From: Hydnum rufescens UP504
Lineage: Eukaryota > Basidiomycota > Agaricomycetes > Cantharellales > Hydnaceae
NCBI GenBank assembly: GCA_014904985.1
Contig: MU129056.1
Coordinates: 18,780 to 82,779 of the forward strand
Reading direction: 5' to 3'
DNA length: 64,000 bases
The notes beneath the pieces were generated by a model. That model searched no databases. It saw only the letters and a list, made by a program, of their open reading frames with translations, and was not told where the DNA came from. The number at the start of each line of letters is the position of its first letter. Position 1 is the first letter of the stretch. A program made the position numbers and the translations under genes. Below are positions 2,863 through 40,577 of the stretch, in pieces.

Positions 2863-3139
2863 CACCTCAGTCAGCCACTTGGACTGATCTCAAAAGGCAT
2901 GTCGAACCACATCAAATTAATTGCCTATGAGGCATCAAAATCCTTTGATCTCAAATAATTTCAACAGGGTGACCTTAGGTCAATCTGTAAGTCTGCCCAT
3001 AGGCATTTTGATATCAAACTCATATTTGCCTGGGGGTATCAGGATAGGCCCTGGCAAGCCCAGGAATGCCCCCACGTGGGTCAATGGGCCATACAGGCTT
3101 ATCGGCAACTATGATTATTTACTTATTATTGTTTGTTCT

Positions 3140-5240
3140 CATGGATAATCATTAATTTATTATATACACATCTATCTATGGGCATGTGTTTCATTCACTG
3201 GGTTCTGGTTCAAGCAATGTCCTAGAGAAATCACTAAGATGTTAGTTAAAATTTATAACCAGCACAAAAAGAGCAGCATTTGCTGCTCTTTTTGTGCAGT
3301 TGCATACACTACTTATATATTACCACACACCTGCTGCAGTGGGTGTGTGGTTTGGGTGGTTTTGTTTGGTGGGTGGCCATTTGGCCAGTGTTTGTTCTGC
3401 AGATTGTTGTTTGGGGGGGTCTGTCTGTCTCTTTGGGCTGTGGGTTGTTGTTTCGCCGCTTCTGGTTCAGGCGATGTCCTAGAGTAACAGGTATGTTAGT
3501 TACAATTTGAAATTAGCACAAAGAGAGCAGCATGTGCTGCTCTCTTTGTGTGGTCACCTAGACAGGAGACTTACCTATATATAACCACACACACCCCACA
3601 GTGGGTGTGTGGGTTTTTGTATGGTGGACCTCTGTTTGCGGGTCTGCATTTGGCGGGTCTTGATTCGGCGAGTCTTGATTCAGCAGGTCTTGATTCGGTG
3701 GGCATTCGTATGTCAGGTTTTGGTGGTGGGCATTCGTTTGGCAGGTTTGCAGTCAGGGGTTTGTGGGGGTTTGAGTTCAAGATCTAGAAGAATAAATTAT
3801 GTTAGTTAAATCATTAAAAACATTGCAAGAAGAGCAGCTTATGCTGCTCTTCTTGCACCACAAAATAAATAAATAAAAACTCATCTTGTAGCACCACACA
3901 CCAGCCGTGTGGTGGGTGTGTGGTGCCCTGTTTTGCACTGTGGCCATGTTTTGATTTGGTAGGGCCTGGGGTTTCATTCACTGGGTTGTCACTCGAGGGG
4001 GGGGGGTTGTTTGCACAGTTTCGTTCACTGGGTCTTCATTTGGTGGGTTTGTGGTTGGGGGTTCATGTAGATTCGAGTCTAGGAACTACAAAAATTAATT
4101 TAAGATTAAAGCAGCACAAAAAGAGCAGCTTACGCTGCTCTTTTTGCATGGCTGTAGATATTGGGGGGGGAAACTGTCAGGGTTTGTCCCTTACTCTGGT
4201 CCACTCCAGATCACTCTGGTCCTTGTCCACCCACCTCCAGTCCAGTTCTCCGCTTAGTTCCTTCGCCCAAGTCCACTTTGCTTCTGGCTTGATTCCAGTT
4301 TGACTCCGATCCAACCCTATCTTGGTTTCATTTCCCTTTCATTTCCCATTGCTTCCGGTTTGTCCCCTGGCTGAGTTCCTGTTCCTGTTCCTGTCCCCCT
4401 TGTAACCACCCACAGTTTAGCAATCCCTCCCCCGTAGTATAGTCATCATGTATAAGTAGTCCAAGAGCGAAGTCCAGAGACCCCAGCTTTGGTCTCTCAG
4501 GATTTCCGCTGTTACTCTGGACTACAGGTCAGCCTTCATGTATTCTGTATTCATATTACATAATCTCAGGATTTCCGCTGTTACTCCGGACTACAGCTCC
4601 AAGTATTATCCAGTCAACTCCACGAGCTTAAGGACTGCCATGCTCATTTCCACCTAGTCCCTTCTGGGCTGCTGGACCGCTCCTCTGACATCCCTAACCT
4701 CCTTATCTCATTCTTGCCCAGATTCTTGCAGACTTAGCTGGACTTACACCAGACTTAGCCGGAATTATTTGTGTTTACATTTGTTTGGTGCCCTCGTCGC
4801 AGCGTGGCCATGACAGAAACCCACCATGTATTGTACCACACACCCGCTGCAGTGGGTGTGTGGTTCCTGGGGGGCACTTGTTGGGCATGTTGCCACTTGG
4901 CGGCTTTCATCATGCCTTGTTTTGTGTCCAGTGGGTGGGTTTTCATTTGGCAGGTCATTGATGGGCAGGTTTTCACTTTGCAGGCTGCTGGGCAGTGGGT
5001 TTTCATTTCGTGGGGCTTTGGCTGGTGGGTCTGTGTTTGGGGCTCATGTGGGTTGAGGTCATGACCTATAATATTAAAAGATTTGTTAGTCATGAACATT
5101 CAAAACCAGCACAAAAAGAGCAGCAAAAGCTGCTCTTTTTGCACTGTGATATCTACTAGGAGAAGAACTTACCTGATACAACCACACACCCGCCGCTGCA
5201 GGTGTGTGGTTGTTTGCTTGCCTTTCTAGGCAGTGGCGGT
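3140..5240 (-). other. Module array A (minus strand): five intron-like hairpin modules
   Basis: Read on the minus strand, each module shows a CTAAC branch site, a TTCTAG-type acceptor, a variable block of about 150-200 bp, a palindrome ACCACACACC...GGTGTGTGGT, and then a donor-like GTGAGT/GTAAGT. Intron hairpins of the type CAAAAAGAGCAGC...GCTGCTCTTTTTG lie near 3263, 3518, 3824, 4114 and 5108. Acceptors (read on the plus strand as CTAGAAAAAT-like strings) are at 3786 and 4079, among others. The variable blocks contain short tandem repeats, for example TTCGGCGAGTCTTGA-like units at 3660-3700. Open frames are short and encode hairpin-derived peptides in every frame. The array is mirrored at 10020-11450. 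Confidence 0.82.
4175..4815 (+). repeat. Solo LTR inserted in the left arm (TSD GAAAC)
   Basis: The 641-bp segment runs TGTCAGGG...GGCCATGACA and is flanked by GAAAC at 4170-4174 and 4816-4820. The mirrored site in the right arm (about 10414-10430) lacks it and has GTTTC once. It contains a TATA-like GTATAAGTAG near 4451 and two copies of a motif CTCAGGATTTCCGCTGTTAC (4496 and 4564). It keeps more CpG than its surroundings, which suggests a younger age. Orientation is taken from the TATA-like box. Confidence 0.93.
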
Positions 5241-5734
5241 CCAGTTGGGTAGCTGCAAAGAGAGAGTGCAACTCAATGCCGGCAATTGCTGGAACCCAAA
5301 AAGCATGCAAGTCCTGGCACCATGAGCACAATCTCAATTAATAGCAAATATCTAGACATGAAATAAATAATATATAATAGATATGAGTCCTAAAATGCAG
5401 AGAAGACAACAATAATAGGTCAGAGCTCAATAAGGCATGAGATGCCTAATTGAGCTCTGACCTATTATCATCATCTTCTTTTCATTTTTGGACTCATATT
5501 TATTATATATTATTTATTTCATGTCTAGATATTTGCTATGAATTGAGATTGTGCTCATGCCACCAGGACTTGAGTGCTTTTTGGGTTCCAGCAATTGCCA
5601 GCATTGAGTCACGTTCTTTCTTCGCAACTCCACACCCACTGAACACAACCACCCAGAAAGGGAAGCAGGGAAAACACCCAAGAATGGAAGCAGACAACCA
5701 CACACCCGCCGCTGCAGGTGTGTGGTCATCTAAA
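5240..5734. promoter_or_regulatory. Palindromic centre 1 (midpoint 5440), candidate bidirectional promoter
   Basis: About 200 bp on each side are inverted copies. The midpoint is AGGCAT-GAG-ATGCCT inside a longer arm ending GAGCTCTGACC. Each arm has an AT-rich TTATTATATATTATTTATT block, the best TATA-like candidate, followed by ATGTCTAGATATTTGCTAT. The two module arrays run away from this point on opposite strands, so if they are transcribed the start is expected here. That is inference from geometry only. Confidence 0.55.
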
Positions 5735-6960
5735 GTGAGTGTTTTTTTTAATCATAGTAGCTACAATGGTGCAAAAAGAGCAGTGAAAGCTGCTCTTTTT
5801 GTGCTACTTTGGATTTTTTTACTAACACATCTTTTATTATTCTAGATCATGACCTGGTCCATGGTGACAATTTGCCAAGCGATGAGGCCCCCAAATGGGA
5901 AGGCCCAACCAGGAATGCAACAGATGCCAATGTGCCAAATGACAATGTGCCAAACAACGACATGCAATGCACCAAATGGCAATGTGCCAAACAACAATGC
6001 GCCAAATGATAACACGACAGACACCAGTGTGACAGACGACAAGGGGCCCAAGGAACCACACACCCACTGCAGTGGGTGTGTGGTAGTATTCCTAAGGTGA
6101 GTCCCCCTGGTAGATACAGCCATGCAAAAAGAGCAGCTTTCGCTGCTCTTTTTGCGCTGCCTTCACTTAACTAACTTGTTTTTCTATTTAGGTCTTTGCC
6201 TTTCACCCGAGTGAATAATGACCCCCACGACCCCAGGTATCGAAACCTGAGCAGCAGTATGAACAGGCACCCAAGAGCCTGTTCGCCCCTCCACAGTGCA
6301 AAATAAAGTACCACACCCACAGCAGCAGGTGTGGTACTACAAGATGAGTATTTTTTTTTTGTGGTGCAAGAAGAGCAGTGCAAGCTGCTCTTCTTGTGAT
6401 GCTTTAATATTTAACTAACATCTTTATTTTTCTAGATCTGGGACTTGAACCCACACAAACTGCGACCCCAAACCCCGCGACTGCAACCCCGTGATCCCAA
6501 ACCCACCGAGTGAAGCCCCGTGATCCCAAAACTGCCAAACAAAGGCCTGCAAGCCAAACCCCTGGAACAAAACTGTGGAACAGGGTTCCCCCAAGTGGAA
6601 CCCTGGCCAACAATGGACATATGAACCACACCTGCTGGGGCAGGTGTGTTCATTTAAGGTATGTTTTTTGAGTTTCTATACATTACAGTGGTGTAAAAGG
6701 AGCAGCCATGGCTGCTCTTTTTGTGCTGCTTTGACTTGTAACTAATGTATTGTTTATCGTAGCCCACAAGCTGAGCCCAGCCCCCATCCCCAAACCTGGT
6801 GAGCGATGACCTGACAAATGGCAGGCGAGTAACACAGGAATGACACCCACTGTGGTGGGTGTGTTAGTGAAAGGTCTTTTTTATTGTATTAGATACAGTC
6901 ACACAGAAGGAGCTGCTCTGGCTGCTCTTTCTGTGGTACTGGTGAGCCATTGGCTCACCA
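5735..6960 (+). other. Module array B (plus strand): five intron-like modules
   Basis: Predicted introns are 5735-5845 (GTGAGT...TATTCTAG), 6097-6191 (GTGAGT...TATTTAG) and 6659-6762 (GTATGT...ATCGTAG). A further one has a damaged donor, ATGAGT, at 6344 and an acceptor ending at 6435. Each contains a hairpin (near 5769, 6123, 6364, 6691; a fifth at 6900 in a terminal partial module) and a CTAAC or CTAAT branch motif before the acceptor. The block at 5846-6096 is largely tandem repeats of an 'AATGTGCCAAAC'-like unit, is open for 83 codons and encodes an Asn/Pro/Met-rich peptide. The array is mirrored at 8277-9535. Confidence 0.82.
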
Positions 6961-8276
6961 GATGTATGTGTATAATAAATACATCAATAATAATAATAAT
7001 AATAATAGTATTTGAATATTAGTAATCATATGCTATCCCTGGGATAGCATGAATTATCACAGGAGCTTCATGGGTTTTTAGCCTATAATCTTATGGCCAG
7101 GGCTGCCAACTGGACTCCATTTAGGGAGTGCTCCACAGGCCTCCCCCCTAAACAACAATTTCCCCCCGGAGCTTTCCATCAATGCAATTCCCTTGAAAAT
7201 GCACACTTAGGTCATCCAAACACATCTATAACATCCCTCAAACTTTCAAATTCATGGCTCCAGTGCCAGAGTCTCTATAATATTTTCAAGTTTCACTGAA
7301 ATACACCCTCTAGTTGGGACACTTCCAAAGCTCCAATCACTCTGATTTTTTGTAGGCCACACCTGCTCACCATTTGAGCCTCAGCCCCCAAATTTCAGCC
7401 CATTCTGAGGACTTTTGATATCTGTCACATGACCAAGATCTTCCCCTCCCCCTGCTTCACTCAGTCCTCTAGTTCATATGGACTTTGTTGCCATCTGGAG
7501 TAGTAGCATGTGACAGTGTATGATTCAAATTTCAAGATATTCCATGCAATATTCATGGAGTTATTCAAGAAACATTCTAGATCAATTCAATTTGGGGGTC
7601 AGAACAGCAGTATTTCCACTAAATACTGCTGTTCTGACCCCCAAATTGAATTGATCTAGAATGTTTCTTGAATAACTCCATGAATATTGCATGGAATATC
7701 TTGAAATTTGAATCATACACTGTCACATGCTACTACTCCAGATGGCAACAAAGTCCATATGAACTAGAGGACTGAGTGAAGCAGGGGGAGGGGAAGATCT
7801 TGGTCATGTGACAGATATCAAAAGTCCTCAGAATGGGCTGAAATTTGGGGGCTGAGGCTCAAATGGTGAGCAGGTGTGGCCTACAAAAAATCAGAGTGAT
7901 TGGAGCTTTGGAAGTGTCCCAACTAGAGGGTGTATTTCAGTGAAACTTGAAAATATTATAGAGACTCTGGCACTGGAGCCATGAATTTGAAAGTTTGAGG
8001 GATGTTATAGATGTGTTTGGATGACCTAAGTGTGCATTTTCAAGGGAATTGCATTGATGGAAAGCTCCGGGGGGGAAATTGTTGTTTAGGGGGGAGGCCT
8101 GTGGAGCACTCCCTAAATGGAGTCCAGTTGGCAGCCCTGGCCATAAGATTATAGGCTAAAAACCCATGAAGCTCCTGTGATAATTCATGCTATCCCAGGG
8201 ATAGCATATGATTACTAATATTCAAATACTATTATTATTATTATTATTATTGATGTATTTATTATACACATACATC
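6961..8276. repeat. Central palindrome of element 1 (midpoint 7618)
   Basis: Both arms carry an (AAT)n tract, a TGCTATCCCTGGGATAGCA palindrome and about 500 bp of non-coding sequence from TGGCCAGGGCTGCC to the loop CCACT at 7616-7620. The innermost 500 bp of each arm are clearly homologous to the arms of the palindromes at 39148-39984 and 42880-43905. No open frame of note is present. Confidence 0.92.
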
Positions 8277-9535
8277 TGGTGAGCCAATGGCTCACCAGTA
8301 CCACAGAAAGAGCAGCCAGAGCAGCTCCTTCTGTGTGACTGTATCTAATACAATAAAAAAGACCTTTCACTAACACACCCACCACAGTGGGTGTCATTCC
8401 TGTGTTACTCGCCTGCCATTTGTCAGGTCATCGCTCACCAGGTTTGGGGATGGGGGCTGGGCTCAGCTTGTGGGCTACGATAAACAATACATTAGTTACA
8501 AGTCAAAGCAGCACAAAAAGAGCAGCCATGGCTGCTCCTTTTACACCACTGTAATGTATAGAAACTCAAAAAACATACCTTAAATGAACACACCTGCCCC
8601 AGCAGGTGTGGTTCATATGTCCATTGTTGGCCAGGGTTCCACTTGGGGGAACCCTGTTCCACAGTTTTGTTCCAGGGGTTTGGCTTGCAGGCCTTTGTTT
8701 GGCAGTTTTGGGATCACGGGGCTTCGCTCAGTGGGTTTGGGATCACAGGGTTGTGGTCGTGGGGTTTGGGGTTGCAGTTTGTGCAGGTTCAAGTCCCAGA
8801 TCTAGAAAAATAAAGATGGTAGTTAAATATTAAAGCATCACAAGAAGAGCAGCTTGCACTGCTCTTCTTGCACCACAAAAAAAAAATACTCATCTTGTAG
8901 TACCACACCTGCTGCTGTGGGTGTGGTACTTTATTTTGCACTGTGGAGGGGCGAACAGGCTCTTGGGTGCCTGTTCATACTGCTGCTCAGGTTTCGATAC
9001 CTGGGGTCGTGGGGGTCATTATTCACTCGGGTGAAAGGCAAAGACCTAAATAGACAAACAAGTTAGTTAAGTGAAGGCAGCGCAAAAAGAGCAGCGAAAG
9101 CTGCTCTTTTTGCATGGCTGTATCTACCAGGGGGGACTCACCTTAGGAATACTACCACACACCCACTGCAGTGGGTGTGTGGTTCCTTGGGCCCCTTGTC
9201 GTCTGTCACACTGGTGTCTGTCGTGTTATCATTTGGCGCATTGTTGTTTGGCACATTGCCATTTGGTGCATTGCATGTCGTTGTTTGGCACATTGTCATT
9301 TGGCACATTGGCATCTGTTGCATTCCTGGTTGGGCCTTCCCATTTGGGGGCCTCATCGCTTGGCAAATTGTCACCATGGACCAGGTCATGATCTAGAATA
9401 ATAAAAGATGTGTTAGTAAAAAAATCCAAAGTAGCACAAAAAGAGCAGCTTTCACTGCTCTTTTTGCACCATTGTAGCTACTATGATTAAAAAAAACACT
9501 CACTTTAGATGACCACACACCTGCAGCGGCGGGTG
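8277..9535 (-). other. Module array C (minus strand), mirror of array B
   Basis: This is the reverse complement of array B with scattered, mostly transitional, differences. Hairpins lie near 8303, 8512, 8839, 9081 and 9433. The damaged donor of the fourth module is also present here (ACTCAT at 8888-8893, ATGAGT on the minus strand), so the damage predates or was copied during formation of the arms. Confidence 0.82.
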
Positions 9536-10020
9536 TGTGGTTGTCTGCTTCCATTCTTGGGTGTTTTCCCTGCTTCCCTTTCTGGGTGGTTGTGTTCAGT
9601 GGGTGTGGAGTTGCGAAGAAAGAACGTGACTCAATGCTGGCAATTGCTGGAACCCAAAAAGCACTCAAGTCCTGGTGGCATGAGCACAATCTCAATTCAT
9701 AGCAAATATCTAGACATGAAATAAATAATATATAATAAATATGAGTCCAAAAATGAAAAGAAGATGATGATAATAGGTCAGAGCTCAATTAGGCATCTCA
9801 TGCCTTATTGAGCTCTGACCTATTATCGTTGTCTTCTTTGCATTTTAGGACTCATATTTATTATATATTATTTATTTCATGTCTAGATATTTGCTATTAA
9901 TTGAGATTGTGCTCATGGTGCCAGGACTTGCGTGCTTTTTGGGTTCCAGCAATTGCCGGCATTGAGTTGCACTCTCTCTTTGCAGCTACCCAACTGGACC
10001 GCCACTGCCTAGAAAGGCAA
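9536..10020. promoter_or_regulatory. Palindromic centre 2 (midpoint 9798), candidate bidirectional promoter
   Basis: This mirrors centre 1, with AGGCAT-CTC-ATGCCT at the midpoint and the same AT-rich blocks on both sides (near 9720 and 9860). The same function is inferred and equally unproven. Confidence 0.55.
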
Positions 10021-11450
10021 GCAAACAACCACACACCTGCAGCGGTGGGTGTGTGGTTGTATCAGGTAAGTTCTTCTCCTAGTAGATATCACAGTGCAAA
10101 AAGAGCAGCTTTCGTTGCTCTTTTTGCGCTGGTTTTGAATGTTCATGACTAACAAATCTTTTAATATTATAGGTCATGACCTCAACCCACACGAGCCCCA
10201 AACACAGACCCACCAGCCAAAGCCCCACAAAATGAAAACCCACTGCCCAGCAGCCTGCAAAGCAAAAACCTGCCCATCAATGACCCACCAAATGAAAACC
10301 CACCCACCAGACACAAAACAAGGCATGATGAAAGCCGCCAAGTGGCAACATGCCCAACAAGTGCCCCCCAGGAACCACACACCCGCTGCAGCGGGTGTGT
10401 GGTACAATACATGGTGGGTTTCCCCCCCCAATATCTACACCTGCACAAAAAAAGCAGCGTAAGCAGCTCTTTTGTGCTGCTTTAATCTTAAATTAATTTT
10501 TGTAGTTCCTAGACTTGAATCTATGTGAACCCCCGACCACAAACCCACCAAATGAAGACCCAGTGAACGAAACTGTGCAAACAACCCCCCCCCTCGAGTG
10601 ACAACCCAGTGAATGAAACCCCAGGCCCTACCAAATCAAAACGTGGCCACAGTGCAAAACAGGGCACCACACACCCACCACATGGCTGGTGTGTGGTGCT
10701 ACAAGATGAGTTTTTTATTTATTTATTTTGTGGTGCAAGAAGAGCAGTGTAAGCTCCTCTTCTTGCAATGTTTTAATGATTTAACTAACATAATTTATTC
10801 TTCTAGATCTTGAACTCGAACCCCCATGAACCCCCAACCCCAAACTCGCTGAACGAATGCCCACCACCAAAACCCGACATATGAATGCCCACCGAATGAA
10901 TGCCTGCCAAATGAAGACCTGCTGAATGAAGACCCGCTGAATGAAGACTCACTGAATGAAGACCCACCAAATGCAGACCTGCAAATGGAGGTCCGCTGTA
11001 CAAAAACCCACATACCCACTGTGGGGTGTGTGTGGTTATATATAGGTAGGTCTCCTGTCTAGGTGACTGCACAAAGAGAGCAGCAAATGCTGCTCTCTTT
11101 GTGCTGATTTCAAATTTTAACTAACATACCTAACATACCTGTTACTCTAGGACATCACCTGAACCAGAAGCGGCGAAACAACAACCCGCAGCCCAAAGAG
11201 ACAGACAGACCCCCCCCCAAATGACAATCTGCCAAACAAACACCAGCCAAATGGCCACCCACCAAACAAAACCACCCAAACCACACACCCACTGCAGCAG
11301 GTGTGTGGTAATATATAAGTAGTGTACACAACCATGCAAAAAGAGCAGCAAATGCTGCTCTTTTTGTGCTGGTTATAAATTTCAACTGACATCTTATTGA
11401 TTTTTCTAGGACATTGCCTGAACCAGAACCCAGTGAATGAAACACACGCC
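10021..11450 (+). other. Module array D (plus strand), mirror of array A
   Basis: Predicted introns are 10066-10172 (GTAAGT...ATTATAG) and 10414-10512 (GTGGGT...TTCCTAG). A module with damaged donor ATGAGT (10706) has its acceptor ending at 10806. Two further modules have acceptors ending at 11150 and 11409. Hairpins lie near 10094, 10441, 10733, 11070 and 11333. The block at 10173-10413 is open throughout one frame (within 10139-10462) and would encode a His/Pro/Lys/Thr-rich peptide ending in the hairpin-encoded HTPAAAGVW. The block at 10860-10970 is a short tandem array of GAATGAAGACCCGCT-like units. Confidence 0.82.
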
Positions 11451-11767
11451 CATAGATAGATGTGTATATAATAAATTAATGATTATCCATGAGAACAAAC
11501 AATAATAAGTAAATAATCATAGTTGCCGATAAGCCCATATGGCCTGTTGACCTGCTTGGGGCATTCCTGGGCTTGCTGGGGCCTATCCTGATACCCCCAG
11601 GCAAATATGAGTTTGATATCAAAATGCCTATGGGCAGACTTACAGATTGACCTAAGGTCACCCTGTTGAAATTATTTGAGATCAAAGGATTTTGATGCCT
11701 CATAGGCAATTAATTTGATGTGGTTCGACATGCCTTTTGAGATCAGTCCAAGTGGCTGACCGAGGTG

Positions 11768-11951
11768 ATGGGGCCAGGGTCTAAAAAATTACCTGGCATG
11801 GCCCCATGAGACCTAATTTTGCAGGTGGGACCATGGGCCCATGCCAGCAGCTGAGTACATGTGGGGCCATGTGTGCATAGGCCTATTAGACCCACTTTCA
11901 TACCACAAAAATACTACCTAATTAGATACTGAAATAGGGCTGCCTAAGGTG
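11768..11951 (-). repeat. Element 1 outer right terminal inverted repeat
   Basis: It ends CTGCCTAAGGTG at 11951, followed directly by TACTTATA (11952-11959). It pairs with 2366-2548. Confidence 0.92.
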
Positions 11952-12140
11952 TACTTATAGCCCTTCATAGTGGGAGGGATCACCAGTTTCAATCTCTCAG
12001 GATTCCCACTGCAATAGGTGTGAGACTTGTGTGTCCCTTGTTGTGTGGTGTATACTCAGGATTCCCACTGTGATAGCATGTGGTTAATTAATCTCTTTCC
12101 TCTTTCTGTTTGTGGCTTTGACAGCAGTGTTGCCCTGACA
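11952..12140 (+). repeat. Target duplication copy and gypsy-1 5' LTR, right part
   Basis: TACTTATA at 11952-11959 is the right target copy. The remainder continues the LTR exactly where the left part stopped and ends GCCCTGACA at 12140. It contains two copies of CTCAGGATTCCCACTG (from about 11996 and 12055). Internal gypsy sequence begins at 12141. Confidence 0.92.
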
Positions 12141-12205
12141 GAAGATTGAAACTCATCTCCTTGACCCCACAAACATCTTCTTTATCCCTTCTACCTCCTC
12201 TCCTC

Positions 12206-13590
12206 ATGGATGAAATACCCACTGATGCTTTCTCCATCTTTGGCAATGCTGGAGTAGGCCTTTGTCAAATGATGGAGGCACAACAATGATGGTGTAAGCA
12301 GTTGGAGCAACAGAACATTATACTCCAGACCTAGTGACTTGCCTTCAGACTAATGCCTCTTCTCATGAAACCCTGATGGCTGAAGTTGAGGTGATCACCA
12401 AGGCTGTTGTTGAGAACCTTCCTGCTCCTGTTGTTGAAGTTCCTCCTGCTCCTGCTACTACTCCTTCTATCTCTGTACATCCCCTGAAGGCAGCTGATCC
12501 AGAGGTCTTTGGTGGTGATTGAAAGAAGGCTGATCCCTTCCTCTGCACTCTGAAACTTAACATTGCTATTCAACCCAACTCCTTTCCCAATGATCAGACA
12601 AAGATCCTCTATGCCCTCTCTTACATGCAAGGAGGCAGTGCTGGTGACTGGGCTTCCAACTACACATGTGCTATCCTTGATGGCAATTCTCCCTTCCCTG
12701 ATTGGGAAACCTTTTGCACCCACTTTGAGGCAGCCTTCAGTGATGCAGACTGAGAGGCTCATGCCTGTCTGCAGTTTTGTACCTTGAAGATGACTCAAGG
12801 GATGACAGCTGAGGAGTATACAATGGCCTTTGAGGCCATATCTGGGAAGACAGGCTTTAATGATGGAGCCTTGATGGATGCTTATGAGCATGGACTGCTC
12901 TGTAGCCTGGTCAAGAAGATACACCCTGACACCCTCCCTATGTCCCTTCAAGAATGGAAGGACAAGGCCACTCATATTGATAATTTGTGGCATTGCTTTA
13001 ATGAACAGCACTCCTTCTCTCCAGCCAACCCTCACCAGGACAATCATCCAGGAACAATTTGACCCTTCAACCCTCCCACCACTACTTCTCAAGCTCCTCC
13101 AACCTCTTTCCATCCTGCTGCTGCTGTGCCCTCCTCCTCCACTTATGAACCTATGGACATAGACTCCAATTGTCATCAGAATAACCCTTGCTGAGTTGCT
13201 GGTCTGTGCTGGAATTGTGACAAACCTGGTCACATTGCCAGAGACTGTCCAGAGCCCCCATGCTCTCACTCAGTCTGAGGTGCTCTGTCATCTGAGCAGA
13301 TGGAGGAAGTGGTAGAGAAAGTCTGTGCTACTCTGGCACCCAAACCTGTTGAGGATGGAAATGAGGGTGTGGCAAAGAATTTTTAAAGATGTTGACAGTG
13401 AAGGACACACCCTGTTTGACAAACCGATTCTTGCTTCTTTCAACTTGTACAGTAGGAGCCACAATGGATATGTTGGATCACATTGACATTGATGGCCTAC
13501 ATGAAAGAGAAGACATGTCATTATCCACAAGCCCACCACTCTATATCTATTCCACACACCTTCACTGAGCTACTGAGCTAAAGGTCCATC
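12206..13590 (+). pseudogene. Gypsy-1 gag, broken, with zinc knuckle
   Basis: Gag forms the particle and binds element RNA. The likely start is ATG at 12206, 66 bp after the LTR. Recognisable gag-type sequence runs from about 12480 (AADPEVFGGD, then FPNDQTKILYALSYMQGGSAGDWA), and the CCHC knuckle CWNCDKPGHIARDC is at 13207-13248. The frame is interrupted by several stops, such as TGA near 12521, 12752 and 13061, and is unreadable after about 13380. Protease follows directly. Only fragments of 60-110 codons stay open, so it is a relic. Confidence 0.85.
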
Positions 13591-14075
13591 CACAGACCCT
13601 AGACAGTGGCCAGCCTATGGCAGTTGATGCCCTGCTTGATTCAGGAGCAACAGGGATGTTCATTGATCAGGAGTTTGTCAAGGCCAAAAATCTTACCACT
13701 CAGCAACTTCTGTGGCCAATTCTGCTTCACAACATTGATCCCACCCTTAATGATGCTGGCTCAGTTCAAGAAGAAGTTGACCTCCTGATGCACTTTGGTG
13801 ACCATTCAGAGAAAAGTACATTTGCTGTGACTAGCCTGGGGTGGATTCCCCCTATCATAGGGCACACCTGGCTTGTTCATCATAACCCTGAGATCAACTG
13901 GTCAATGGGTAAGGTAGCCATGATAAGGTGTCCCAATGGATGTGGGTTGTGATGCATCTGCATTGTCTTAGCAAAGGAACACTCTGAATGAAGCCTCAAC
14001 CTCTCTGCATCTGTATCTCCACCTGATCCGCTTCTGTCACACAGTCGCCAAGGAGACCCTATACTATCTTTGCCC
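13591..14075 (+). pseudogene. Gypsy-1 aspartic protease
   Basis: An open stretch at 13617-13952 contains the retroviral-type protease core: LLDSGATGMFID with the catalytic Asp at 13638-13640, and downstream the conserved block ending PIIGHTWLVHHNPEINW (the G-H/M-x-W-L pattern before a D/N-W motif). The protease would cut the Gag-Pol polyprotein. The frame ends with TGA at 13950. Element 2 enters 125 bp later, separating protease from RT. Confidence 0.87.
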
Positions 14076-14083
14076 AGTCTTTC
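14076..14083. repeat. Left target duplication of element 2 (AGTCTTTC)
   Basis: AGTCTTTC precedes the terminus CAGGCTGGTCAG. AGTCTGTC follows the other terminus at 18971-18978 (7 of 8 identical). Confidence 0.8.
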
Positions 14084-14299
14084 CAGGCTGGTCAGTCAAA
14101 TTGGGGACCTAATTAGGTACCATTTTCAGGGCAGAAAATGGTACCTAATAGGTCCCCAGACAGTATGGCTGAAATACAGCCAAAATTTGGCCATTCCAAT
14201 TCATTTCAGCCAATCCGTGGCTGTGCTAGATTATATATTTATTTACTATTATTTGTTTACTATTATTATTATATACATATTACACTATATACATATTAT

Positions 14300-15620
14300 C
14301 CCCCCCCCTGGGGTTTCCCACCACAGGGGGGGGCATGGTTCATGCAGACCATGCACCTGCATATACCCACCACACCCACTGCAGCAGGTGGGGTTCATAT
14401 GCCCCAGTCAGGGCCAGTTCCATTTGGGCACTCCCTTGAGAGAGCGGGTTTTCATGGGGCCTTGTTTGCAGTTTTCGTTTGTGGTGTGTTGTTCCACAGG
14501 TTTGTGGTTGACAGTTTACATGGGTTCTGGTTCAGGATCTAGAGAAATTAAAAATAGAATGTCAGTTGAACAGTAATGCAGCACAAAAAGAGCAGCTTAT
14601 GCTGCTCTTTTTGTGCCACAAGAATAAATAAAATAAAATAAAATAAAACTTACCTCACAGTAGGCCACACCTGTTGCAGCGGGTGTGGTGTACTGGAGCC
14701 ACATATTCTGGCTTGCATGCACAGTGGTTCATAGGGTCCTCCCTGCAGTTTTCATTTGTGGTGGTTTGTTCATGGTTTTCATTCATGGTGTGCCATTTGG
14801 TGGGTTTGTGCTCATGGGTTCATGAGGGGTCTGGCCAGGATCTAGAGATATCAATAATATGTTAGTAAGATATTAATGCAGTGCAAAAAGAGCAGCATAC
14901 ACTGCTCTTTTTGCACCACAAGAATAAAGTAAAAAAAAAAAAAATAAACTTACCTTGTAGTACCCCACACCCGCCACAGCAGGTGTGGGGTACTTGATTG
15001 TATACTGGGGTCATGCACTCCAGCTTGCATGCAGCCTTGCATGGTGGTTTGTACAGGCTTGTCCCTGTGCATGTCATTTGGGTGTCACAGGGTTCCAGTG
15101 GTTTTTGTGCATGTATACGTTCGGATGACCTAGAATATAATAATATGTTAGTTTAAAGTTAAAAACCATGCAAAAAGAGCAGCTTTTGCTGCTCTTTTGT
15201 GTGGGTGTAGGTACTTAGGGGGGACTCACCTTAAGTAGTACCACACACCCACTGTGGTGGGTGTGTGGTACTTGGGGTCCTCATTTGGCACATTGCTGTA
15301 CATGGCATAGGCATTTGGCACGTTAGCATGGTGTGTTGGCATGTGTTGCATTGGCATGTGCCACACTGGTGTGTTTTCATTGGCACATGTTGCATTGGTG
15401 TGTGTCATGTTCACGTGCATTGCATTGCCTTTCAGTCCCTTGTTGTTTCATGGGTTTCTGTCATGCCTTGGACAAGTCACCCTAGAATAAACAAATTGTT
15501 AGTATAAAAATTCTAAGCAATGCAAAAAGAGCAGCTTTTGCTGCTCTTTTTGCACCATTGCATCTACCAATAAAAAAACTCACCTTGTGACCACACACCC
15601 ACAGTAGTGGGCATGTGGTC
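14300..15620 (-). other. Module array E (minus strand): four modules
   Basis: Hairpins lie near 14581, 14881, 15170 and 15521. Paired exon-end palindromes (CCACACC...GGTGTGG type) are at 14368, 14664, 14964, 15240 and 15592. Acceptors appear on the plus strand as CTAGAGAAAT (14539), CTAGAGATAT (14842), CTAGAATATA (15130) and CTAGAATAAA (15482), followed by GTTAG (branch complement). The block at 15290-15420 is a degenerate tandem repeat of a GGCATGTGTTGCATT-like unit. Confidence 0.8.
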
Positions 15621-16400
15621 GTATGCTTGCCTTTCCAGGTGATTGCCTGTTGTGGTAGCAGAGATGTGGAGGAAGATAGAAACTCAATGCTGGCAATTGC
15701 CAGTACTTTAAAAAGCACCTGAGTGTTGGCGCTACAAGCACAGTACATATTAATAGCAAGCATGTAGATGTGGAATAAATACTATATAATAAATATTTGT
15801 GCAAAATAATGTGAAGAAGACAGTGATAGTAAGTCAGAACTCAATAAGGCATGATATGCATAATTGAAAAGTGGATTGGGCGACTTCTATGGGTCAGAAT
15901 TGGCCCAAATTAGAATATATTAATGGTACATATACACCTTATGTGGGAAACCAGTTATATCAGATGTTCTGAGCATTTCTGAATTTTTCATGCCTTCAAT
16001 TCCCTATTTAGGGAATTGAAGGCATGAAAAATTCAGAAATGCTCAGAACATCTGATATAACTGGTTTCCCACATAAGGTGTATATGTACCATTAATATAT
16101 TCTAATTTGGGCCAATTCTGACCCATAGAAGTCGCCCAATCCACTTTTCAATTATGCATATCATGCCTTATTGAGTTCTGACTTACTATCACTGTCTTCT
16201 TCACATTATTTTGTACAAATATTTATTATATAGTATTTATTCCACATCTACATGCCTGCTATTAATATGTACTGTGCTTGTGGTGCCAACACTTGGGCAC
16301 TTCTTGAGGATTGGCAATTGCCAGCATTGAATTGCGCAACTACACAGCCACACCCAAGCCAGAATGCCAGAAAGGTGACCACATGACCACACACCTGCTG
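15621..16400. promoter_or_regulatory. Palindromic centre 3 (midpoint about 16007), candidate bidirectional promoter
   Basis: An almost perfect inverted repeat of at least 200 bp per arm surrounds TTCAATTCCCTATTTAGGG. Outside it are the same GTCAGAACTCAATAAGGCAT and AT-rich TATTTATTATATAGTATTTATT blocks found in centres 1 and 2, so this is the homologous centre enlarged by about 320 bp of extra palindrome. Confidence 0.6.
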
Positions 16401-18660
16401 TGGCAGGTGTGTGGTATTTAAGGTGAGTTCTTTTTCCAGTAGATACAGGAGTGCAAAAAGAGCAGCAAAAGCTGCTCTTTTTGCATTGCTTTTAATTTCT
16501 TTACTAACCAGTTTTATTATTATAGGTTATGGCCTTGTCCCAGGTGCCCAATGAAGAGGTAGGGCCCACATGCCACCATGGCAACCAAAACACAGCAAAC
16601 AAAGCCACAGCAAACAAAGCTGCAGCAAATGAAGCCCTGCCAAATGATGGTGGGAGAGGTGGTGATGTGAACCACACACCTGCTGCAGTGGGTGTGTGGT
16701 TCAATACAATGTAAGTACATTGTACACCCCCAACAGCACAAAAAGAGCAGCCCTGGCTGCTCTTTTTGTGTTTATTTTAAGTGTTAACTAACACATAGTT
16801 TATTATTCTGAACCACCCACCAAAGGAACCCCCCCCTCCCTGGGAAATGACAATGCGCCCACCAAATGAGAGGCCCAAATGCAACATGCCAGATGAAACC
16901 CAGGAACAAGGACACATGATGCAAGGTCGCAGGGACCCCAGACAAACCACACACCTGCTTCAGTGGGTGTGTGGTAATTTTAAGGCACATTCAACCACAC
17001 AGAAGGAGCAGCATATGCTGCTCCTTTTGTGTGGCTCTTTTTCTTTTTTTACTAACATATTTACTATCCTAGGTTGTCAAGCAAGATGACAACCTGACAA
17101 ATGAACCCCCCCCCACAAAACAACACATGCCAAATGAAATCTGCCAATGATGACCAGCAGACAAACCCCCAGATGGAACCATGCACCCACCAAAGCAGGT
17201 GCATGGTAATTTTAAGGTAAGTATAACCGCCCAAAAGGAGCAGTGTACACTGCTCCTTTTGGGTGACTTTTCTTCTTTTTTTTTGGTCTTTTACTAATAT
17301 ATTGTTTATTCCTAGGATCTTGGCCTACAAACTCCACCAGCTCCCAAATCAAGACCTGCGACCCCACAAACCTGCAAAACCACACAGTCACAAACCCAAA
17401 GCCATGGCCATGAATGCAACACAGAAACCCCAAATGATGCCCTGCAACCACACAAATGGGGCCCACACAAAGGGGGGACTGAAGGCCCACCATACCCCCT
17501 GCAAATGCAAGGACCAGCAAATGATGCCCCATGCAAATGCATGACACCACACACCTGCTGCAGCAGGTGTGTGGTAATCTAAGGTGAGTCCCTATCCCCT
17601 GTAGATACAGGAGTGCAAAAGAGCAGCAAAAGCTGCTCTTTTGCATCACTTTTAACTATTCACTAACCTAAATTCTTTTATTCTAGATCTGGCTCCCCCC
17701 AAAACCCCCAACCCATGTAAGCCCTGTATGGAAAAACTGAGAGTGGAATGCATGTGGCCATGGCATGAACAAGCACCACACACCTGCTGAAGCGGGTGTG
17801 TGGTACTAGGAGATTTTTCTTTAAATTTCTATATGTACAGTGATGCAAAAGGAGCAGCTTGCGCTGCTCCTTTTGTGTCACTTTGAATTTTTTTTTACTA
17901 ATTTATCTCTTATTCTAGGGTCTGAATTGAAGCTTGTGAAGTGAACCACCCACCCACTACAAACCATGTACCTGCAGTGCAAAACAAGTACCATGCACCC
18001 ACCAAAGCAGGTGTGTGGTACTACAAGGTAATTTTTTAATCATGTATACATGCAGTGATGCAAAAGGAGCAGCTGGTGCTGCTCCCTTTGTGTCACTTTC
18101 AGTTTTTTTTTCCACTAATCTATGCTTTTACTTTACTCTAGAAACTGAACTGAACCTCAAACCACCCACCCAAATGATGACCAACCCCATACACCTACAG
18201 ACTATGCACCCATAGGGAGAAACAAGGACCACACCCACTTTGATGGGTGTGGTACTACAAGGTATTTTTTGTAAATTTCTATATCTACAGCAATGCAAAA
18301 GGAGCAGCACAAGCTGCTCCTTTGTGTCACTTCAAATTTTTTTTTTTTACTAATGTATGCTATTATTTTAGGATCCAAATTGAAGCCCCTGAAATGATAA
18401 CTCATGACATGTGACTTGGCCAAATGACCTGCCCAATGGTGAACTGTCAAGCCCAGCCCCCTGTACCACACACCCACCTAAGCAGGTGTGTGGTGCTACT
18501 AAATAGTGCTTTCTTTTTTCCTTTTTGATTTGTATAGACAGTACCACACACCCACCCAAGTGGGTGTGTAGTGCTACTAAGTAGTACTTCTTTTTTTCTT
18601 TTTGATTTGTATAGACAGTACCACACCTGCTTGGGTGGGTGGTATATTAATTGAATTTTT
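16401..18660 (+). other. Module array F (plus strand): eight modules
   Basis: Predicted introns are 16423-16525, 17217-17315, 17584-17686, 18028-18141 and 18262-18371, from 99 to 114 nt, each with a GTRAGT/GTAATT/GTATTT donor, an internal hairpin, a CTAAC/CTAAT motif and a TATAG/CCTAG/TCTAG/TTTAG acceptor. The intron starting at 16711 (GTAAGT) has a damaged acceptor (ATTCTG at 16810). Two others, with acceptors at 17072 and 17918, have unclear donors. The block at 16526-16710 is open throughout and encodes an Ala/Asn-rich peptide. After 18470 the hairpin CCACACACC...GGTGTGTGG and its TTTTTGATTTGTATAGACAG spacer are simply repeated about three times without intron hairpins. Confidence 0.83.
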
Positions 18661-18970
18661 GAATAAATCAATAAATAAACAAGTCAATAACAAGACCACT
18701 AAATGAAGCCCTGCTGATAGAGGGTATATGTATAATAGAAATAATTATAAATGGAACTATCCCCAATATGCCCTATGGCCTGCTGCAAGTCTGAGATTCT
18801 CTAAATCCCAGTTTCAGCCAATTTTTGGCCATTTTGGCCAATTCTGGGCCAGGAGGTGAAATCATAAAAATGGCCATTTCAGCTGAAATAGTGATGGGAC
18901 CTACTTAGGTACCATTATCTGCCCCAGAAGTGGTACCTAACTAGGTAGGCTTAGATGACTGACCAAGGTG
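18661..18970. other. Element 2 right subterminal region
   Basis: Non-coding. It contains GGACCTACTTAGGTACC and GGTACCTAACTAGG-type short palindromes that pair with 14100-14155 near the left end. It ends GACTGACCAAGGTG. Confidence 0.75.
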
Positions 18971-19045
18971 AGTCTGTCCCTCTGGGAAAAAGCAGGAGAT
19001 GGGCATCTCCAGGGCATTAGCCAGCCATGGTGGTCTGTATGGTTG

Positions 19046-27596: not shown

Positions 27597-28765
27597 CATG
27601 AGCACCTGCTATGATGTGCATATCACCTGCTATGCTGTGCATATCACCTACTATGGGAAGCATAGCATGTACTATGGATCAACAGATCACCCACTATGGG
27701 CACATATCACCTACTATGAAACATATATCACTTGCTATGAAGTACATATCACCTACTATGAACTACATATCACCTACTATAAAATACACATCACCTGCTA
27801 TAACCATATCACTTGCTATGAACCACCTATCAGCTGCTATAGAATGCATATCACCTGCTATATCAGGCATATCACCTACTAGGACATACATATCACCTGC
27901 TATAGAATCTATATCACCTGCTACAGAATGCATGTCACCTACTATGATACCATATCACTTGCTATGAACTACATATCTCCTACTATAAATCCCATATCAC
28001 CTGCTATGAATCCAATATCACCTGCTATAGAATGCATATCACCTAGTATGACATCCATATCACCTGCTATGACATTCATATCACCTGCTACAGAATGCAT
28101 ATCACCTACTATGACATCCATATCACCTGCTATGACATTCATATCACCTGCTACAGAATGCATATCACCTACTATGACATCCATATCACCTGCTATACCT
28201 CCCATATGATCTGCTATGAATCCTATATCACCTACTATAGAATGCATATCACCTACTATGACATCCATATCACCTGCTATAGCATGCATATCACCTGTTA
28301 TTACATTTATATCACCTGCTACAGGATGCATATCACCTACTATAACAGCCATATCACCTACTACAACATCCATATCACCTGCTATATCAGGCATATCACC
28401 TGCTATAGAATCCATATCACCTACTATAGAATCCCTATCACCTGCTATAGAATCTATATTACCTACTATAGAATCCCTATCACCTGCTATAGAATCCATA
28501 TCACCTACTATAGAATCCCTATCACCTGCTATAGAATCCATATCACCTACTATGACATCTATATCACCTGCTATGACATCTATATCACCTGCTATGACAT
28601 CTATATCACCTGCTATGACATCTATATCACCTGCTATGACATCCATATCACCTGCTATGACATCTATATCACCTGCTATGACATCCATATCACCTGCTAT
28701 GACATCCATATCACCTGCTGTGACACCCATATCACCTGCTATGACATCAATCACTGCTATACCAT
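27597..28765. repeat. 21-bp minisatellite (TATCACCTGCTATGACATC core)
   Basis: About 55 imperfect copies in tandem. The last third (28555-28740) is nearly homogeneous, while the first third shows variable units. The period is a multiple of three, so five or more frames on both strands stay open for 90-300 codons and read as heptapeptide repeats (ISPAMTS on plus, DMDVIAG on minus). These are not evidence of genes. Confidence 0.95.
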
Positions 28766-30000
28766 GCAATCACCTGCTAATACCATGCAGATCACCCTGT
28801 ATGATCCGATGCGTGAGGTGAGCGCTGGTGGGAGACCATGCATCATCGCGTTGCTGGGATGGGGCGTTATGCCGGTTGGTGGTGGGTCGGAGCGTGCGGT
28901 GGGGGGTACCATGCAGATCAGCCTGCGGGATACCGAGTCAGGGTCGACCGGGCTGGTGATGCAGTGCATAGTCACGCTGCTGAGGCATGCAGTCAGCTCT
29001 GCGTGATGACATCCGACGTCGAGGCCTCGCTATGGAATCGCATATCAGGCTGCTACTGATGAATGGGCTGGGCACCGCTGCTACAGCATGGCAGTCAGCG
29101 GCCGTGCTGATGAGATGTACAGACAGCGTATAAGTCTGCGATAGCCCTGAGACGTGGATGGGAACTGCGCGGAGTGCGACGACCACTGTCGGGGCGTGGG
29201 AGAGCCAGTTTCAGTTGCCACGGGCTCTGCGGACTCGACATATGAGTCGTGATCGATCGGCGCGTGCGTACTTGGGAGTGTGCGTGCAGGCGCGGGGTTG
29301 ACCTGATGAGGAGTAGAGGGGAGGTGGCGCGGCGTGCCCGGATGAGGATGGCGGGTGATATTGAGTCCATGTCCGATTGGAGGGGTGAGGGTGGGAGCGG
29401 GCGGTGGTGTGGGGGGGGGTGGTGGTGGTGTAGTGGTCATGAGGAGTGAGACTAGCTCATGCTGGCGTAGGTGAGTGATGGATGGACTGCTTCGGCACTC
29501 GCTCTAGAGAGCGCTGTGGTGGGGTTGGCCGGCGAGATGGAGAGTAAGGGTAGTGGTGTTAAAATGGAGATGCAAGTCCGGGGATCCTGGGAGATGTCTG
29601 CTAATCCAGCGCGCTGGTTGTGTGGTATCGAGCCCCGGGATTTCGGTGCGGGCTGCGGAGTCGGCCACAGTCGGGCTTCCTGTGGCCGGTCGTACAATGG
29701 GCGGGTGGACCTGTGTTCTCTTGTTCTTGGTCCTTATTATTTTTTTTTCTGTTTCTTTTACCCTTTTATTTGTTTGTTGTATCTACTTCCGTGTTGCCGC
29801 CTGAGTGTGTGTTCAGGGGTCCAGAAGGAATGTTTTTGTTCGGTGTCTCTGCTGCGCTGCCCGGACAAGCCTACAAAGTTCCTAATGGGTTGGAAGAGTC
29901 ATTATGGTGAGGAGTACCTTCTTGATGGTTAACAAGGATAGGTGCGATGCATTATGGCAGCTGAAGAACAGCCAGGTATATATGTCATATTGTGAACTCT
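28766..30000. other. CpG-rich block next to the minisatellite
   Basis: CpG density rises abruptly at about 28800 and stays high to about 29700. Parts (28780-28830, 28905-28930, 29030-29100) still resemble the minisatellite (ACCATGCAGATCA, GCATATCAGGCTGCTAC). Open frames exist on both strands (for example 29471-29932 plus, 29081-29440 minus, Pro/Thr-rich) but none has a recognisable domain. It could be an unmethylated or unique region. Confidence 0.5.
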
Positions 30001-37199: not shown

Positions 37200-38640
37200 A
37201 AAAAAAGAGAGAAAGATCCCCCTCCTAATACACCCCCCCCTTGCTAATAACGACCCCCCTGGCTAAATACACCCCCCTGCTAATAATCAACCCCCCTTGC
37301 TAATAACCCCCCTGGTAATACAACCCCTCCTGCTAAACCACCCCCAAATTGCTAATACACCCCCCCTGCTAATTCACCCCCCTGCTAATACACCCCCCTG
37401 CTAAGCCCTCTAACACACATAACACCCCCCGCTAAACCCCGCTAATAACCCCCCCTGCTAATACACCCCCCGCTAATACACCCCCCTCTAATACACCCCC
37501 CCCTGTCGCTAATACCCCCCCTCTTGCAATACACCCCCCTGCTAATACACCCCCTGTAATACACCCCCCCCTTGTCTAATACACCCCCGCTGCTAATACA
37601 CCCCCTAATTCCCCTCGTCTAATACACCCCCTAACCCCCCTACCTCTAAAACCCCTGCTAATACACCCCCCGAAAATACACCCCCTCTAATACGACCCAA
37701 CACCCTGCTAATACACCCCCCCTGTTAATACACCCCTGCTAATACACCCCCCTCTAAATCACCCCCCCTGGTCTAATACACCCCCCTGCTGAAACACCCC
37801 CTGCTAATACACCCTGCTAATACACCCCCACACTCAAATCCACTGCTAATACCACCCCCTGCAATACACCCCGTGCTAATACACCCCCCTGCTAACACCC
37901 CCCCTGCTAATAACCCCCCTACCGCTAATACACCCGCCCAATTCACCGCTAACCTAATACACCCCCTGCTGAAATACACCCCCTGCTAATACACCCAAAC
38001 CCTGCTATACACCCCCCCCGCTAATACACCCCCCTGCTAATACAACCCCTGCTAATACCCCTGCTAACCCCCCTGCTAATACACCCCCTGCTAATACACC
38101 CCCTTATTGGTAACACTCCCCCTTCCCTTGCGTAATACCTCCCACCCTTACTGGTACCACCCCCTCCCTTATGGTACCATCCCCATTCCCTTATTCGTAC
38201 CACCCCCCTCACTTCCTGTAACACCCCCTCCTTCCTGGACCACCCCCCCTTCCTTCTGTAACACCCCCCTCCCTTCCATGGTAACACCCCCTCTCCTGTA
38301 ACCCCTCCCCCTCCTGGTAACACCCCCCTCCCTTCCTGGTAAACACCCTCCCTCCCTTCCTGGTAACACCCCCCTTCCTGTAACACCCCCCTTCCTTCCT
38401 GTAATACCCCCCCCCTATTGGCAACACTCCCCCTTCCCTTCCTGGTAATACCTCCCCCCCCTGCTGGCAACAACCCCCCCTTGTTGTAACACCCCCCTGT
38501 CCTTTATTGGTACCACCCCCCCTTCCCTTCCTGGTAACACCCCCCCTCCCTTCCTGGTAATACCCCCCCTTGTTGGTAACACCCCCCTCCCTTCCTGGTA
38601 ATACCCCCCTTCCTGGTAATACCCCCCCCTCTGGAGTTAC
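37200..38640. repeat. C-rich tandem array (CTAATACACCCCCCTG, then TTCCTGGTAACACCCCCC)
   Basis: The first half is made of irregular copies of a 15-17-bp CTAATACACCCCCCTG unit, the second half of about 22-bp units with TTCCTGGTAACACCCCCC. Copies vary in C-run length. Long open frames on the minus strand (for example 38021-38473, Gly-rich) simply translate the repeat. The minus strand has dense runs of four to eight G, so G-quadruplex formation is likely. Confidence 0.93.
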
Positions 38641-38754
38641 CAACCTCCCTAACAAACCCACTTGGAATTAGACCACCCCCCCAGGCAAGTGGATTGATTG
38701 TGCTCCCTCGGTACCACTTAGAAGTGCCAGTACATAGGATTCTAATTACCAAGT

Positions 38755-39146: not shown

Positions 39147-39147
39147 A

Positions 39148-40577
39148 CTCCCCCCTAAATAATAATTCCTCCCAGAGCCTTCCATCCATGCAATGGCCTG
39201 AAAATTCACCCTTAGGTCATCCAAATACATTCATAACATTCCCCAAAATTTCAGATTCATGACTCCAGTGTGAGAGTTTCCATAATATTTTCAAGTTTCA
39301 CTGACATACCCCCTCCAATTGGGGCACTTCCAGAGCTCCAATCACTCCCATTTTTTGTAGGCCACACCAGCCACCATTTGAGGCTCAGGCCCAAATTTCA
39401 GCCCATTCTAAGCACTTTTGACATTGGTCACATGATCAAGATCCCCCCCTCCCCCTGCTTCACTCAGTGATCCAATCTGTATGAAAGCTGTTGCCATCTG
39501 AATTTCACTACATACCATACCTCTAACCCCCAAATTGAATGGGTCTAGAATATTTCTTGAATAACTCAATCAATATTGCATGAATGTTCTGAAATTTGAA
39601 TCATACACTGTTACAGACTACTACTACAGATGGCAACAGCTTTCATACAGATTGGATCACTGAGTGAAGCAGGGGAGGGGGGATCTTGATCATGTGACCA
39701 ATGTCAAAAGTGCTTAGAATGGGCTGAAAATTTGGCCTGAGCCTCAAATGGTGGCTGGGTGTGGCCTACAAAAATGGGAGTGATTGGAGCTCTGGAAGTG
39801 CCCCAATTGGAGGGGGTATGTCAGTGAAACTTGAAAATATTATGGAAACTCTCACACTGGAGTCATGAATCTGAAATTTTGGGGAATGTTATGAATGTAT
39901 TTGGATGACCTAAGGGTGAATTTTCAGGGCCATTGCATGGATGGAAGGCTCTGGGGAGAAATTATTATTTAGGGGGGAGTGCTGTGGAATAGTGCCTAGA
40001 TGGAGTCCAATCAGGCTGATATTTGGTATGTATACTCCCCATATATGTATTAAACTATTGGAATTATATTAGAGCAACCTCTGCTCTACATCTATATAAT
40101 TGACTTTTGATCTTCCTCCCCCTCCCCTGAATTTCAACCACTTCCACACATCCAATGTATTTCATTTTTGGATATAGTCAGTGTTATAATATTCTAAGCC
40201 TATTCCACTTAGTTTGGTCCTAATGTGGAGTGTTCTACATTTATGGTAGGCTTTTGTTCCCTTTTTGCCTGAAAAGGGAGTTCAATGCCTAGAAGTAAAC
40301 AAAATAAGCTGATTCTTGGCACATATTTATTTGATTACATGGTCATACTCCATGTAAAATTCAAGTCCATATCTTGTCTGTAGGGGAGTAAATCATTTTC
40401 AAGGTTGAAACCTATTTGCCTCATATCTCTGTACCTACTGCATGGATTTGGCTGAAAATTGAATATGTTCTTCACCTGAGCAGTGTCTAATCACATGCCA
40501 AGTTTCAGAATAGTCTGCTCATTGGGTATTTTTTTGAAATTTCACTGCCTCTGGTATCCATTGTCCAGTTCCCTAAA
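39148..40577. repeat. Truncated copy of the palindrome family, running into a gap
   Basis: Left arm 39148-39503 and right arm 39506-39984 are inverted copies, but about 125 bp near the centre of the left arm is deleted. From 39985 to 40577 the sequence matches 43890-44470 of the larger palindrome. The left arm of that outer part is missing, replaced by the terminal fragment ending at 39146. Confidence 0.88.

Follow-up and report, generated by a model that had tools for sequence, protein, structure and literature searches.

What kind of genetic element is composed of introns arranged one after another? This question is raised by a stretch of 64,000 nucleotides of Hydnum rufescens UP504 (GenBank assembly GCA_014904985.1, contig MU129056.1, positions 18,780 to 82,779 of the forward strand), the whole of which is referred to here as the window. 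The species is described as an ectomycorrhizal mushroom of the order Cantharellales (PMC7550596). The window contains two large elements, element 1 and element 2, in which the original prediction, made from the letters alone, recognised a recurring intron-like module with two hairpin types in alternation, housed in elements bounded by terminal inverted repeats (TIRs). That description is upheld by the current analysis, in which the modules have been followed through the genome (63.2 Mb in 539 contigs). We consider it probable, though well short of certain, that they belong to non-autonomous DNA transposons of the KDZ group (Kyakuja, Dileera, Zisupton) carrying two divergent, spliced, multi-intron, non-coding transcription units. 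The basis of this reading comprises KDZ-like ends, three target duplications, thousands of copies, strand-specific splice signals, covariation of the hairpin stems and exons that lack a coding signal.

Organisation and abundance of the modules

From the centre of an element outward, each module is made up of a T-poor exon, a first hairpin (H1), a donor AAG/GTRAGT, a second hairpin (H2), a CTAAY branch site and a TTCTAG acceptor. H1 has the form CCACACACC...GGTGTGTGG, is situated at the end of the exon and usually terminates 5-9 nt upstream of the donor. The exons have a median length of 163 nt and a composition of 32% A, 32% C, 21.5% G and 14% T, as against 38% T in the introns. The sample consists of 162 modules retained out of 165, taken from 19 loci and the window; the loci were selected for carrying a 14-mer of H2 and are not a random sample. 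The predicted intron length is 90-119 nt in 143 of the 162, and single elements hold several to about 12 predicted introns of their own.

The H2 14-mer GCAAAAAGAGCAGC has 2085 + 2058 exact matches in the genome (reversed control, 0). Perfect H2 cores of the form GAGCAGCNNNNGCTGCTC number 4921 (reversed-pattern control, 1) and perfect H1 hairpins, CCACACACC-N4..14-GGTGTGTGG, number 3883 (reversed control, 0), so that the many genomic copies anticipated by the original prediction are found in thousands. Extrapolation of the sample suggests about 5900 modules genome-wide, an estimate that is rough because the loci were picked by the H2 14-mer. Among the first 50 H2 cores listed, 48 lie in arrays and the two single ones (L013 and L015) each adjoin an H1. 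No perfect H2 occurs in the viral contigs.

A covariance model, R1, was built from an alignment, A1, of 118 introns out of 124 listed, 18 of them from the window. Of its 61 matches in the window, 32 are sense modules and the other 29 are antisense shadows of their hairpins. The sense modules are distributed as 20 in element 1 and 12 in element 2, which reproduces the count of second hairpins reported earlier; 18 of them match by construction and the remaining 14 are independent of the model. Three introns named earlier as examples (5735-5845, 16423-16525 and 17584-17686) are matched at identical coordinates. The scan of the whole window gave zero matches beyond 3222-18371, and no Rfam family attains its gathering score in the window. 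The predicted introns, all matched by R1, are as follows.

Element 1, 3222..5172, minus strand: introns 3222-3330, 3479-3574, 3784-3884, 4079-4178, 5066-5172
Element 1, 5735..6978, plus strand: introns 5735-5845, 6097-6191, 6344-6435, 6659-6762, 6863-6978 (the last weak, 33.2 bits)
Element 1, 8259..9503, minus strand: introns 8259-8374 (weak, 33.2 bits), 8475-8578, 8802-8893, 9046-9141, 9393-9503
Element 1, 10066..11409, plus strand: introns 10066-10172, 10414-10512, 10706-10806, 11046-11150, 11301-11409
Element 2, left arm, 14539..15583, minus strand: introns 15482-15583, 15130-15229, 14842-14953, 14539-14653
Element 2, right arm, introns 1-4, within 16423..18371, plus strand: 16423-16525, 16711-16811, 16967-17072, 17206-17315
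Element 2, right arm, introns 5-8, within 16423..18371, plus strand: 17584-17686, 17810-17918, 18028-18141, 18271-18371

Splice signals and strand specificity

The strand test considered 142 unique H2 hairpins, with the position of H1 relative to each hairpin as the sole guide to orientation. A donor together with a branch/acceptor signal is present in the sense orientation in 102 of these modules and in the antisense orientation in none. The donor alone is seen in 129 modules in sense against 9 in antisense, and the branch/acceptor alone in 113 against 9. The donor is also recovered without being preset: when hexamers between H1 and H2 are grouped into classes, with the third letter coded as R/Y and the fourth as W/S, GTRWGT is the top class and occurs in 67% of 137 modules. 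On the 3' side of H2 the top 5-mers are T-rich words of the stem and tract (TTTTT 92%, CTTTT 85%, TTTTG 83%), and these are followed by ACTAA (73%); TCTAG reaches 55%. The U2-type donor, branch site and acceptor thus stand in the sense order and at the spacing known from spliceosomal introns, with H2 placed after the donor and before the branch site.

Immediately beyond the last H1 the word AATAAA has a density of 5.24/kb in sense and 1.31/kb in antisense; 15 of 28 arms have it in sense and 9 of 28 have the antisense word. This strand bias lends weak support to a transcript end just outside the arrays.

Coding potential of the exons

The exons do not look coding. Their lengths leave remainders of 0, 1 and 2 modulo 3 in 32, 38 and 32 cases (n=102). 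An open sense frame is present in 48 of the 102, against a shuffled mean of 38 (standard deviation 4.6), and an open antisense frame in 80. Nine arms spliced in silico contain no long sense frame through their exons: the longest open frames are 86-214 aa in sense and 143-401 aa in antisense, figures for which introns with variant H2 cores were left in and a few of the listed exons contain an unrecognised module. An antisense array frame of 147 aa, used as a protein query, gave 11 candidates, none of them at E 0.01.

Ends, spread and probable relationship with KDZ transposons

The module elements terminate in CA..TG inverted repeats. An end motif, CASSYTGGTCAGYCA, is found 634 + 661 times in the genome (reversed control, 1 + 2). 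Target duplications have been identified around three elements: 8 bp at L012 (GGTTACCA twice), 7 bp at L020 (GATGTTC twice) and 7 of 8 bp at element 2 of the window (AGTCTTTC/AGTCTGTC). As a control, the flanks of the better-kept ends were compared all against all, and 2 of the 252 pairs meet the same test.

For 109 of 117 modules the closest relative belongs to a different element; for 6 it is found in the same arm and for 2 in the opposite arm. Of the 109, 52 occupy the equal array position, where positions count only modules with the canonical core. The arrays would therefore seem to spread mainly as whole elements. An exon-exon junction pattern expected of intron-less copies has 0 matches genome-wide (a single pattern that covers some exon starts only), as expected of DNA transposition. 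The related elements L012 and L014 differ in that one is poorer in CpG and richer in TG/CA, a pair useful for dating and for the correction of mutation bias.

At least 154 KDZ domain matches are present genome-wide, with 150 of 584 candidates scored; the KDZ load of this genome is very large. Two PF18758 domains, at C5:444428-445228 and C2:733138-733935, have module-like ends on their 3' side at distances of 1.8 kb and 3.0 kb respectively. The C5 end resembles the ends of module elements L022 (84% over 102 bp), L021 (84% over 104 bp) and L023 (90% over 73 bp), and the C2 end those of L012 (78% over 73 bp) and L011 (74% over 93 bp); all such matches range from 73-90% over 67-104 bp, 73% being the weakest. 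A third KDZ gene, at C31 (KDZ E = 3.4e-37), is followed at about 1.6 kb on the 3' side of the domain by the end CAGCCTGGTCAGCCA, which resembles the outer ends of element 1 in the window. Since their ends are related to ends beside KDZ genes, the module elements are probably non-autonomous KDZ elements. Within the window no KDZ transposase is present among the matches listed, and the array exons have no coding signal. On these sequence comparisons membership appears supported at the level of the KDZ group as a whole.

The 8 bp duplications had also suggested hAT as the mobiliser. When 30 of 90 listed hAT-domain matches were checked, one locus (L057) had an end motif, and that end belongs to a KDZ-gene element adjoining the hAT stretch; hAT was rejected.

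Architecture of the two elements of the window

Both elements had been described as TIR elements. Terminal inverted repeats are indeed present, but element 1 is a 98.8% palindrome and not a simple TIR element: two array units stand face to face around a nested palindromic element. The earlier picture also requires a correction of direction, as the arrays are directed outward from central palindromes. In the sampled loci that have a palindromic centre, the adjoining arrays likewise point outward, as read off and not tallied. No target duplication of element 1 was found. Its parts and those of element 2 are listed below; the outer arms of element 1 were defined by self-comparison and the target duplication of element 2 by flank comparison.

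2863..4174, no strand: element 1, outer left arm of the palindrome, 90.8% to 10418-11767
2870..2906, plus strand: element 1 left, similar to the C31 KDZ element end (83.8% over 37 bp; 68.6% over 102 bp)
4175..4815, no strand: 641-bp insertion with TG..CA ends, flanked on each side by GAAAC; carried by the left arm, lacking in the right
4816..10422, no strand: element 1 core, two face-to-face array units, 98.8% palindrome
5056..5855, no strand: central palindrome of the left array unit, 74.8% self-inverted
7111..8126, no strand: palindromic element nested in element 1 at its axis; copies within 39147-43902 are about 83-84% identical
9383..10182, no strand: central palindrome of the right array unit, 75.0% self-inverted
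10418..11767, no strand: element 1, outer right arm of the palindrome
11724..11761, minus strand: element 1 right, similar to the C31 KDZ element end (84.2% over 38 bp; 68.1% over 113 bp)
14076..14083, plus strand: target site duplication of element 2, left copy AGTCTTTC, matching the right copy at 7 of 8 bases
14084..18970, no strand: element 2, a module element with CA..TG ends CAGGCTGGTCAGTCA / CACCTTGGTCAGTCA
15466..16544, no strand: central palindrome of element 2, 84.8% self-inverted, holding intron 1 of both arms
18971..18978, plus strand: target site duplication of element 2, right copy AGTCTGTC

The insertion at 4175-4815 is probably a solo long terminal repeat that landed after the palindrome had formed.

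Covariation of the stems

The original prediction held that pairing and not sequence is conserved in the stems. The compensating variation on which it relied is real; an RNA cause is not established by it. RNAalifold applied to A1 returns a stem of 17 pairs with double changes at 10 of them, and 95.6% of the cells pair. Double-change cells number 153; 500 shuffles, which ignore relatedness, average 61.3 and none reaches that number, and slid controls give at most 33. As L012 and L014 are related elements that have several core variants in common, the independent events are fewer than the cells. The six core pairs of H2 are invariant in A1 because the search expression fixed the stem core. A set of 101 introns was therefore located blind to H2, by H1 and splice signals alone. 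A perfect stem of at least 10 bp is present in 89 of these 101 and in 0 of 101 letter-shuffled controls. Ten of the 101 have compensated core variants of three types, namely GAGTAGC/GCTACTC (7), GACCAGC/GCTGGTC (2) and GAGCACC/GGTGCTC (1). The covariation shows that pairing is maintained and does not distinguish an RNA cause from a DNA cause.

Selection on pairing in the sense RNA predicts an excess of G-T over A-C among imperfect pairs. H2 has 109 G-T against 62 A-C pairs (in related copies), divided into 29 against 11 outside CpG contexts and 80 against 51 within them; the excess is partly mutational, since the stem contains CpG sites. H1 has 68 against 71 and no excess; its pairing percentage is biased, as the H1 finder takes the hairpin with the most Watson-Crick pairs. 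Selection on RNA pairing is thus modestly supported in the case of H2 and unsupported in that of H1. At the level of DNA, the own mate is the best match for 25 of 36 halves of central palindromes, as exemplified by a half in L023 that is 97.7% identical to its mate and 71.8% to the best other; 4 of the 11 remaining halves come from two copies inside element 1. The central palindromes therefore evolve in concert, and the covariation of the small hairpins may be due, in part or entirely, to a correction of palindromes that acts on DNA.

Proposed mode of action and alternative explanations

From the layout of the modules we infer the following course of events. Transcription would start in the central palindrome and proceed outward along each arm, which is a chain of exon-intron modules, each with a T-poor exon of about 160 nt carrying H1 and an intron of about 105 nt carrying H2. 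The introns would be removed by the spliceosome, with H2 drawing donor and branch site together. The whole element would be mobilised in trans by a KDZ transposase and, being moved whole, is proposed to inherit the order of its array. Splicing may keep the element expressed or unsilenced. In Cryptococcus, poorly spliced transcripts trigger silencing; by analogy, one testable idea is that the transposon retains splicing to evade such silencing. Tentatively, and with more doubt than confidence, we also consider that these transposons form a class carrying as cargo two non-coding RNA genes, both spliced and structured, in which the chain of hairpin introns and the hairpins at exon ends would serve the element, for instance through productive, unsilenced transcription or through an RNA that aids transposition.

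Several observations weigh against non-autonomous KDZ elements with spliced transcription units. AATAAA is lacking from 13 of the 28 arms within the 300 nt examined, and its scarcity inside the arrays, once considered as a signal, equals the shuffled expectation and was rejected. The C5 and C2 genes were chosen since an end motif was listed nearby, and they are 2 of 9 among the KDZ matches listed on contigs 1-10. A single end was seen for each KDZ element, and no complete KDZ-coding element with both ends was seen. The stretch between domain and end at C5 has no Pfam family above the cut-off; it aligns with the C2 stretch at 70% over 266 bp. L019, in which both end types are visible, shows no target duplication, and for the remaining ends tested the mate was not found. 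Published Kyakuja elements are characterised in PMC12730594 as having no TIRs, whereas the module elements have them.

The hairpins could also be kept by a DNA-level process, such as template switching or gene conversion in palindromes, that creates double changes in the absence of selection on RNA. This has a considerable chance of being correct, if one that falls somewhat short of probable. It concerns the cause of the covariation, is compatible with spliced KDZ elements, and the introns may still be real. The concerted evolution of palindrome halves, the equal numbers of mismatch types in H1 and the 98.8% palindrome of element 1 itself all argue for it; the G-T excess of H2 (also outside CpG contexts, in related copies), the sense-strand position of H2, after the donor and before the branch site, and the lack of homogenisation of the arms outside the centre, where the opposite arm supplies the closest relative in 2 of 117 cases, argue against. 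We regard it as unlikely that the modules are a hairpin satellite residing in transposons, with splice-like motifs that are accidental or fossil and never used. A satellite would agree with the mismatches of the CpG-decay kind that many copies carry, but it does not agree with the strand asymmetry of 102 against 0, the well-kept donor, branch and acceptor words or the difference between T-poor exons and T-rich introns.

Two further explanations are very improbable. If the arrays were what is left of a protein-coding gene in which many exons had been duplicated in tandem, the regular exon-intron layout, the short periodic repeats in some exons and the slight surplus of open sense frames (48 against 38) would be accounted for; the exon lengths modulo 3, the more frequent open antisense frames, the shorter sense frames of the spliced arms and the 147-aa antisense frame without a relative are contrary to it. 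True introners, each separately inserted into older exonic sequence, are equally hard to reconcile with the data, although related introns that fold into hairpins are reported for fungal introner-like elements (PMC8469720). Exons have H1 and start motifs in common, which indicates that exon and intron were copied together, and the relatives of modules occupy matching positions in other elements. Of the first 50 H2 cores listed, nearly all are members of arrays, and the single ones have an H1 alongside. Non-autonomous KDZ elements with spliced, non-coding arms remain the reading that we prefer.

Other features of the window

Another family of long palindromic elements is represented at 39147-45064 and at 7111-8126, with about 83-84% identity to the axis of element 1; the region 41697-45064 is 96% self-inverted. 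The copies at 39147-45064 have no R1 matches to intron modules. A Copia-type retrotransposon is located on the minus strand at 57637-61793; it has RVT_2, gag and integrase-related domains in two long open frames. Many overlapping self-matches of about 67-89% identity are seen at 27603-28804, 37218-38650, 40950-41773 and 62926-63990, and these tracts are probably tandem repeats. A single tRNA call at 41289 was set aside, as it lies in a region rich in self-matches and its anticodon is unassigned.

Significance and comparison with known systems

If the reading is true, thousands of introns of the same design in ordered arrays would serve as a test bed for the role of intron hairpins in splicing. 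The arrays would allow the study of how exon-intron units are duplicated and of why a non-coding transposon retains splicing signals. Introns may multiply through DNA transposition and with no single insertions into genes, and splicing would be part of the life cycle of a mobile element that neither codes for protein nor inserts introns into genes.

Foldback elements and miniature inverted-repeat transposable elements are, as here, non-autonomous, with an inverted-repeat architecture and a palindromic interior. To our knowledge none of them has ordered exon-intron modules directed outward from the centre. Searches of the open-access PMC literature yielded no account of a transposon that contains hairpin introns in a chain, most subscription papers, bioRxiv and Repbase being outside the search. 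An undescribed class of mobile element had been suggested earlier; given the KDZ-related ends the class need not be new, and it is the cargo of the element that appears to be new.

For the KDZ transposons, a 2025 paper (PMC12730594) ascribes to Kyakuja CA..TG termini, duplications of 7 bp and a lack of TIRs, and to Zisupton duplications of 8 bp. The CA..TG termini and duplications of 7-8 bp of the module elements agree with these published features. The module elements differ in that their interior is a serial intron array in which no transposase gene is seen. Fungal introner-like elements and symmetrical stwintrons are, according to PMC8469720, multicopy related introns with hairpins or inverted symmetry, as here. 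They are described there as integrated in genes, the stwintrons without flanking duplications, whereas the present modules are chained in a mobile element, have a hairpin in the exon and have exons without coding signal. Transposition is linked to the multiplication of introns in the summary given by Gozashti et al. 2022 (PMC9860276), as it is here. In that account of introners derived from transposable elements, the element becomes the intron of a gene; here, one element contains several to about 12 introns.

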